From assembly GCA_013331795.1 (NCBI GenBank), contig DUFP01000009.1:1-54372 (forward strand): 54,372 nt of DNA, given 5' to 3'. Position numbers and translations under genes: made by a program. The DNA comes from Nanobdellota archaeon (GTDB lineage Archaea > Nanobdellota > Nanobdellia > SCGC-AAA011-G17 > GW2011-AR17). Positions 50,117-50,933 of the stretch are shown here, in pieces; position 1 is the first letter of the stretch, and each line of letters begins with the position of its first letter. The notes beneath the pieces are model-generated. The model had not been told where the DNA came from and searched no databases. It was given only the letters and a program-made list of their open reading frames with translations.

Positions 50117-50791
50117 ATGCGATCTTCTGTGTATGAACTTATTGGTGCTATTTATGGTGATGGCCATATTCATAGTACTGAAAATAGGGTGACTTTAGTT
50201 GGTTCGTTGGAAGATTATTACTATTATACTTTTTATCTTAAACCACTTATAGAAAAACTTTTTCCTGGAATAAATGTTTATATTAGAAAAAGAAATGATA
50301 GAAATTCTTACTATCTTAGCTTTGAGTCAAAGGATGCTTTTCAAAAACTTCAAAGCTTTCATTTATGGCGGGGTGCTAAAAATAATCTTGTTTTACCTAT
50401 TTTGCCAAATTCTCTAAGTTTAAAACTTTTCCTTAGAGGACTTTTTGATACTGATGGTTCTCTTAAATTTTCTAAACAAAGTAAAAATATTAATTATTAT
50501 CCTAGAATTCAATATGCTTTCAAAGAGAGTGATTTCTCGAGGGATTTAGGTACTTTTCTTTCTCAAGCAGGTTTTACTTTTTGCCGCTGGTATGATAAAA
50601 GAGATAAAGAATACTATTACCAAATATCTGGAGATAGTTTTCTTCATACATGGATTAAAACTGTTGGTTTGTCAAATCCTGTACACTATAGTAAATATCT
50701 CTATTGGAAAAGATTTGGTTATTTTATACCTAGATCAAGTTTAGCTTTTCGGATGAATGCATTACATTTAAAAACAGAGGATCTTTTTTAG
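50117..50791 (+). CDS. Free-standing LAGLIDADG homing endonuclease
   Basis: A DNA endonuclease of the intron/intein-mobility type. Two LAGLIDADG helices are present: LIGAIYGDGHIH at about residues 8-19 and LFLRGLFDTDGSLKF at about residues 106-120. Both keep the acidic residue. A C-terminal region of the repeat (DFSRDLGTFLSQAGF, KTVGLSNPVHYSKYLYW) follows each. At 224 aa it is a normal monomeric enzyme. It is not inside an intein: no splicing motifs flank it. It ends 15 nt before the 5' end of tRNA-Gln, whose TATA-like box lies within its last codons. It may serve the tRNA introns next door. Confidence 0.9.
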   Translation: MRSSVYELIGAIYGDGHIHSTENRVTLVGSLEDYYYYTFYLKPLIEKLFPGINVYIRKRNDRNSYYLSFESKDAFQKLQSFHLWRGAKNNLVLPILPNSLSLKLFLRGLFDTDGSLKFSKQSKNINYYPRIQYAFKESDFSRDLGTFLSQAGFTFCRWYDKRDKEYYYQISGDSFLHTWIKTVGLSNPVHYSKYLYWKRFGYFIPRSSLAFRMNALHLKTEDLF

Positions 50792-50796
50792 ATATA

Positions 50797-50855
50797 GGCC
50801 GCTTATAGCCCCGTAGAAAGTACTGTTTAGGCAGTCCTTACGGAGTGTAGCGGCC
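50797..50855 (+). other. Leader helix of the tRNA-Gln precursor
   Basis: GGCCGCT at 50797-50803, just upstream of the tRNA 5' end, is perfectly complementary to AGCGGCC at 50849-50855, the D-loop of the tRNA. In the precursor this 7-bp helix would enclose the acceptor 5' strand and the whole first intron. It could help form the splicing substrate before RNase P cuts the leader. Confidence 0.45.
50817..50845 (+). other. tRNA-Gln intron 1 (after position 10)
   Basis: A 29-nt intron. CCGT (exon, 50811-50814) pairs with ACGG (50840-50843) as a 4-bp central helix, flanked by 3-nt bulges AG|A (50815-50817) and AG|T (50844-50846), with inner helix AAGTACTG/CAGTCCTT (one mismatch) and loop TTTAGG. 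This is a bulge-helix-bulge substrate for the archaeal splicing endonuclease, and cutting after the second bulge nucleotide on both sides rebuilds positions 8-14 exactly. Confidence 0.75.
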
Positions 50856-50857
50856 AA

Positions 50858-50882
50858 ACTTTCAGTTAAGCTGTAGGACCAT
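50858..50882 (+). other. tRNA-Gln intron 2 (after position 21)
   Basis: A 25-nt intron in the D-loop. GGCC (exon) faces GACC (intron, three of four pairs), flanked by bulges AA|A (50856-50858) and AT|T (50881-50883), with inner stem CTttCAG/CTGtAG and loop TTAAG. Cutting after the second bulge nucleotide on each side rebuilds A21 followed by the D-stem TCAT. The geometry is weaker than for intron 1, so the boundaries may shift by one nucleotide. Confidence 0.6.
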
Positions 50883-50933
50883 TCATTTCGCCCTTTGGAG
50901 GCGGAGACCCAGGTTCGAATCCTGGCGGGGCTA

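Follow-up and report, generated by a model that had tools for sequence, protein, structure and literature searches.

Transfer RNA genes with more than one intron are listed in one account of archaeal splicing for Crenarchaeota, Nanoarchaeum equitans, M. kandleri, M. thermautotrophicus, Korarchaeum and ARMAN-1/2 (PMC4033280). The accepted co-evolution view ties non-canonical tRNA introns to enlarged or two-subunit forms of the splicing endonuclease EndA. According to a 2019 review, only the (alpha-beta)2 and epsilon2 forms efficiently remove introns with relaxed motifs, and alpha4 enzymes are listed as narrow (PMC6379350). The nanoarchaeon Nst1, which has an alpha4 EndA, is reported to cut canonical introns only (PMC4033280), a strict requirement for the hBHBh' motif is given for the alpha2 enzyme of Haloferax (PMC7714728), and the cutting of bulge-helix-loop motifs is ascribed to homodimeric and heterotetrameric forms only (PMC8707768). 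The Arg/Trp clamp of the broad types, together with their loops, is described in a 2025 structural paper (PMC12397907).

The locus considered here lies in the genome of a Woesearchaeote, whose tRNA genes resemble those of Thermoproteales in having two or three BHB introns in one tRNA, many of them non-canonical. The host load of 19 introns in 28 genes by our own parse (0.68 per gene) comes close to the 0.84 given for Thermoproteales and exceeds the 0.21 given over 217 archaeal genomes, in a survey whose intron models were trained on Crenarchaeota, Euryarchaeota and Thaumarchaeota (PMC8450103). Archaea of the Thermoproteales type, however, are described as having an (alpha-beta)2 EndA, which in its crenarchaeal form carries a Crenarchaea-specific loop, whereas a single, loopless alpha gene was found in the host. 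Nanoarchaeum equitans shares with the host a small DPANN genome and non-canonical BHB introns, and the catalytic subunit of its EndA is the closest solved sequence, but split tRNAs and an EndA of the (alpha-beta)2 form are described for it (PMC4033280), and a beta gene was not found in the host. ARMAN-1/2, which also belong to DPANN, have non-canonical tRNA introns as well as an Arg/Trp base clamp; their epsilon2 enzyme is described as a three-unit fusion of 390 aa with an ARMAN-specific loop (PMC6379350, PMC12397907), as against 187 aa and no insert in the host. The alpha4 EndA of Methanocaldococcus jannaschii (1A79) is encoded by a single gene of equal size and is the best fold match, but it has Tyr at a position where Trp is invariant in 47 Woesearchaeal EndAs. 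Enzymes of the alpha4 type are described as narrow, while the tRNA introns of Woesearchaeota are often relaxed: the gene presented here belongs to a known kind, and it is the pairing of enzyme and substrate that is the surprise.

The window, i.e. the whole stretch of 54,372 nucleotides that was analysed, had been proposed in a sequence-only reading to contain a gene for tRNA-Gln(UUG) that is interrupted twice, by introns of 29 and 25 nt. This gene came first in an exhaustive search in which one or two BHB-bounded segments were removed and the remainder was scored as a tRNA, and it is backed by relatives (see below). Its parts are as follows.

50807..50933, + strand: tRNA-Gln(UUG) gene with two introns, 127 nt (top-ranked BHB parse)
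50807..50816, + strand: exon 1, mature nt 1-10 (BHB parse; joined to exon 2 in G003 and G006)
50811..50814, + strand: intron 1 central helix, exon half CCGU, tRNA nt 5-8 (parse, covariation)
50815-50817, + strand: intron 1 5' bulge (BHB parse, covariation)
50817..50845, + strand: intron 1, 29 nt, at 10/11 (BHB parse; covariation, 8 genes)
50840..50843, + strand: intron 1 central helix, intron half ACGG (parse, covariation)
50844-50846, + strand: intron 1 3' bulge (BHB parse, covariation)
50846..50857, + strand: exon 2, 12 nt, UGUAGCGGCCAA (BHB parse; contiguous joins in relatives)
50852..50855, + strand: intron 2 central helix, exon half GGCC (parse, covariation)
50856-50858, + strand: intron 2 5' bulge (BHB parse, covariation)
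50858..50882, + strand: intron 2, 25 nt, at 21/22 (BHB parse; covariation, 14 genes)
50877..50880, + strand: intron 2 central helix, intron half GACC, one C.A mismatch (parse, covariation)
50881-50883, + strand: intron 2 3' bulge (BHB parse, covariation)
50883..50933, + strand: exon 3, 51 nt (BHB parse; Rfam tRNA model)
50895-50897, + strand: anticodon TTG, in exon 3 (BHB parse; Rfam tRNA model)

In the best parse, the segments taken out are 29 nt following nucleotide 10 and 25 nt following GGCCAA, which leaves the exact 73-nt product that had been claimed, with anticodon TTG; the second cut, which had been placed after position 21, is correct in Sprinzl numbering (21/22) and follows the 22nd nucleotide in the product's own count. 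Both introns had also been said to show 3-nt bulges flanking a 4-bp helix. This description fits intron 1, which has both bulges and a full 4-bp central helix (CCGU/ACGG), but only in part intron 2, in which both 3-nt bulges are present and the central helix (GGCC/GACC) consists of 3 bp and a C.A mismatch; intron halves of the GACC type have GGUC as their partner elsewhere, where the exon in the window reads GGCC. Neither intron has the strict hBHBh' form, as one of the three pairs of the 3-bp outer helix is present in each.

The best parse scored 65.0 against 62.0 for the second, and when the middle of the gene was dinucleotide-shuffled, its combined score was equalled in 6 of 400 trials. By itself, the window sequence makes a case of moderate strength, which the comparison with related sequences turns into a strong one for two introns. 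No tRNA was reported by ARAGORN in the window, and no family matched there at the Rfam gathering score; the Rfam tRNA model reached 26.3 bits on the 3' half of the gene, against a cut-off of 29. Since some tRNAs of these genomes escape both ARAGORN and the Rfam tRNA model, tRNA counts for them will tend to be too low. The expectation that the genome has no other tRNA-Gln(UUG) was borne out within the assembly, which is 89.7% complete: used as query, the spliced sequence matched one place, the window gene, and a second tRNA-Gln was not found. Upstream of the tRNA gene and separated from it by 15 bp, positions 50117-50791 of the window encode a protein with a LAGLIDADG_3 domain.

Within the same genus, the two introns are found separately. 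The tRNA-Gln of G001 has the 10/11 intron only and that of G002 has it together with a canonical intron at 37/38, while the genes of G003 and G006 have the 21/22 intron only, with likewise only three of four central pairs in these counterparts of intron 2. Exon 1 and exon 2 accordingly form an uninterrupted, identical stretch in G003 and G006, and the junction of exons 2 and 3 is uninterrupted in G001. Both intron joins are therefore fixed by contiguous sequence in these three relatives. The spliced product is identical at 69 of 73 positions to an uninterrupted orthologue (G050), a value reached by 0 of 5000 shuffles when two free deletions were allowed, and at 66 of 73 to the orthologue of G012. 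For three more distant orthologues, the observed identity was equalled or exceeded in the two-gap control by 4, 37 and 3 of 2000 shuffles, respectively. With each intron gained or lost in one tRNA within one genus, this set of genes is useful for studies of intron turnover.

Covariation points to the same structures. In the eight tRNA-Gln genes of the order with a 10/11 intron, 94.1% of the cells of the intron 1 motif are paired and both-side changes occur in 9 of 11 pairs; not one of 500 shuffles attained the covariation score, and sliding the partners by 1-3 columns lowered pairing to 29-48%. The central helix reads CCGU/ACGG in the window, CCAU/AUGG in G001 and G002, and CUGU/GCAG or CCGU/GCGG elsewhere. 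For intron 2, compared across 14 genes, 94.7% of cells are paired with 25 double-change cells, and the score was again reached by 0 of 500 shuffles, with 25-53% paired in the slid controls.

The remaining tRNAs of the host are also rich in introns. Among 29 tRNA-model hits in the genome, 28 were counted as tRNA genes (L028 was left out, see below), 15 of them uninterrupted and 13 interrupted by our own parse, with 9 canonical and 10 non-canonical introns making up the 19 introns of the interrupted genes. These counts treat as uninterrupted a type II tRNA-Ser (L015) for which the solver gave a false 11-nt intron, and they include two less sure reads, L018 with anticodon UAU and L023 with C at position 33. 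Three introns were read in each of at least two tRNAs. The initiator tRNA-Met gene (L029, G000:C17:23788-23938) has introns of 25, 22 and 29 nt at 29/30, 37/38 and 43/44, and once spliced it shows 93% identity over 75 nt to an uninterrupted counterpart in G007, of the same family; the tRNA-Asn(GUU) gene (L025, G000:C29:24369-24528) is parsed with introns at 27/28, 37/38 and 43/44. As a cell needs an initiator tRNA, and an uninterrupted initiator tRNA-Met was searched for in the host genome and not found, the host very likely splices several non-canonical introns. Of the indirect arguments for splicing of the window gene, this three-intron initiator is the strongest.

The view that such introns are unexpected in a small DPANN-type genome does not hold, either for this genome with its three-intron tRNAs or for the order, in which 51 of 119 distinct tRNA-Gln genes are interrupted and 68 are not. 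These genes were collected with a T-arm/acceptor pattern, with matches in 77 of 102 genomes, and supplemented with further genes; the pattern is blind to a changed or interrupted T arm, which makes the interrupted share approximate. For motif counts, two genes misread by the solver (L202 and L231, whose product is not tRNA-Gln) were dropped, leaving 49 interrupted genes, 32 with one intron, 15 with two and 2 with three. Their introns lie at 37/38 in 29 cases and elsewhere in 39. The full 3-bp outer helix is present in all 29 introns at 37/38 as against 2 of the 39 non-canonical ones, which have all four central pairs in 35 cases, a count that is partly by construction since central pairs were required by the search, and two or more pairs in the inner helix in 37. 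The contrast between inner and outer helix is informative because both were weighted equally in the search. The non-canonical introns of the order are of the relaxed HBh' kind. In another genus (g8) of the same family, four loci (L194, L195, L213 and L215) have similar canonical 37/38 introns of 83-95 nt, found in both tRNA-Gln(UUG) and tRNA-Gln(CUG), a likeness suggestive of intron copying between tRNA genes.

As the intron motifs are relaxed, the need for a splicing endonuclease of broad specificity, which the sequence-only reading had stated, is reasonable; the sole EndA found appears to resemble the narrow type. One EndA gene, alpha-only and coding for 187 aa, was identified in the host genome. 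Its named relatives are mostly from Woesearchaeota MAGs, and its best matches are in a MAG with the bare title "bacterium" (87%) and in a Lake Baikal Woesearchaeote (82%). In an alignment of 47 Woesearchaeal sequences, out of 80 loci, the catalytic triad Y123, H133 and K164 is invariant, as expected for an alpha4 enzyme encoded by a single alpha gene of about 180 aa. R157 and W184 are equally invariant, and W184 aligns with W384 of ARMAN-2, where M. jannaschii has Tyr, so that host EndA appears to possess the Arg and Trp clamp of the broad enzymes. A CSL or ASL insert relative to M. jannaschii was looked for in host EndA and is absent, while the profile, built from the 47 sequences, shows a 10-residue insert in S. 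tokodaii and a shorter one in ARMAN-2. Modelling of L086, a relative with 87% identity, gave a structure (mean pLDDT 86.5) with 1A79 as its best fold match (Z 23.9, rmsd 1.8, 170 of 171 residues, 38% identity) in a library without predicted cellular proteins.

That this EndA works with a divergent beta subunit missed by profiles, which would make it an ordinary broad (alpha-beta)2 enzyme, is unlikely but deserves serious consideration. Nanoarchaeum equitans, with the closest solved catalytic subunit, has such a beta chain, and no crenarchaeal beta chain is among the PDB matches of the EndA profile, which could therefore miss or overlook a subunit of the crenarchaeal type. The profile does pick up 3iey_B, the beta chain of N. 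equitans (E 6e-17), yet it has one match in the host genome at E values up to 10. Matches were found in 56 of 60 related genomes, single in all except G048, and in the four genomes that lacked a PF01974 match, a further search for EndA was also negative. It is tempting to speculate that the alpha-only EndA of Woesearchaeota, without beta subunit, CSL or ASL, processes relaxed introns at many tRNA positions, and we regard the chances for and against as evenly balanced. The clamp formed by Arg157 and Trp184 is perhaps the basis of such a broad range. It would then be wrong to hold, as a rule, that an EndA of broad specificity has to be of the (alpha-beta)2 or epsilon2 form and carry special loops, and the alpha-only enzyme would represent a further functional class, able to sustain a near-Thermoproteales intron load and a three-intron initiator.

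The host genome also has two genes for the RtcB ligase, and so encodes both of the enzymes, EndA and RtcB, expected of a host of BHB introns in tRNA. One of the RtcB genes (L166, G000:C21:448-3249) has an in-frame, intein-like insert between GFDIN and CGVRVL.

We propose, with a probability of roughly 0.9, that the window gene gives rise to one pre-tRNA-Gln(UUG) with two BHB introns, which is cut by EndA and joined by RtcB to yield an ordinary tRNA. Intron 1 would be marked by pairing of acceptor-stem nucleotides 5-8 (CCGU) with ACGG at the end of the intron. Because positions 5-7 belong to both the intron 1 motif and the acceptor stem, the two are not both fully formed at once, and the acceptor stem would be partly open, or formed later, when intron 1 is cut. 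Intron 2 would be marked by pairing of the D-loop GGCC with GACC. A single EndA of the alpha type presumably cuts behind the second nucleotide of each 3-nt bulge, and the exons would be ligated by RtcB to an ordinary 73-nt tRNA-Gln. The structure of the gene, the conserved and covarying motifs, the distribution of each intron among close relatives and the genes for EndA and RtcB are shown; splicing, the identity of the enzymes and the order of cutting are inferred. Four points speak against this proposal: the single-sequence control, which with 6 of 400 shuffles is not decisive; the published rule that single-gene alpha4 enzymes do not process relaxed motifs, as stated in two of the sources cited above (PMC6379350, PMC4033280); the C.A mismatch of intron 2 and the three of four pairs of its counterparts in G003 and G006; and the failure to find EndA in G001 and G003, same-genus genomes with an interrupted tRNA-Gln of which G003 is rated 100% complete. 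The last of these is read as putative assembly gaps.

A decayed tRNA pseudogene with chance insertions, with a working tRNA-Gln(UUG) encoded in the missing tenth of the genome, is very improbable. The assembly is only 89.7% complete, intron 2 has a helix mismatch and the single-sequence shuffle control (6/400) is only moderate, all of which speaks in its favour, but the exons are intact and give a product 69/73 identical to an uninterrupted orthologue, the motifs covary, each intron is common to other species, and like introns occur in other tRNA genes of the genome. A second copy was not found in the assembly, and the pseudogene was rejected on the strength of the intact exons, the covarying helices and this single match. 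Other boundaries, with intron 2 shifted by a few nucleotides or different segments removed, are just as hard to credit: alternative parses exist, with scores of 62.0 and lower, but both joins are fixed by the contiguous sequence of G001, G003 and G006. A group I intron contains a catalytic core, which is far longer than 29 or 25 nt. Self-splicing group I or group II introns, of which the former are reported to be widespread in archaea (PMC6125680), were rejected as practically out of the question, as the two segments are far too short, no Rfam family matches in the window at the gathering score and the covarying structure is BHB.

What makes the proposed removal of two BHB introns by EndA and RtcB interesting is the lineage, in which a reduced archaeon approaches the intron load of Thermoproteales and has many non-canonical introns, and yet the genomes show only a small single-subunit EndA without special loops. 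If the EndA of M. thermautotrophicus is of the alpha4 type, this archaeon provides a precedent for multiple introns under alpha4, and the novelty here would be intron number and relaxed motif. In the open-licence literature no paper on Woesearchaeal tRNA introns was found by title or beginning of the abstract, and no priority is claimed, as DPANN genomes may be covered by the 2018 survey of EndA types and introns by Kaneta. The combination of a simple enzyme and many introns makes a clean biochemical test feasible, for which a single purified protein and a small set of short RNAs would do.

Three further tRNA loci of the host have unusual features. The hit left out of the tRNA count (L028, G000:C8:9285-9389) has a body like that of tRNA-Leu(CAA) and an insert in the anticodon loop; matching acceptor strands are absent nearby, and it may be a fragment, a split gene or an element-borne copy. 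Locus L018 (G000:C11:13743-13850) reads as tRNA-Ile with anticodon UAU once a 34-nt intron is removed; N. equitans and Korarchaeum are treated as special cases among genomes without predicted CAT tRNAs in the survey cited above (PMC8450103). The tRNA-Ala(UGC) gene (L026, G000:C17:5098 onward) is interrupted in its T loop, at 59/60, by an intron of 34 nt. It lies just downstream of what we take to be the 3' end of a 16S rRNA gene.
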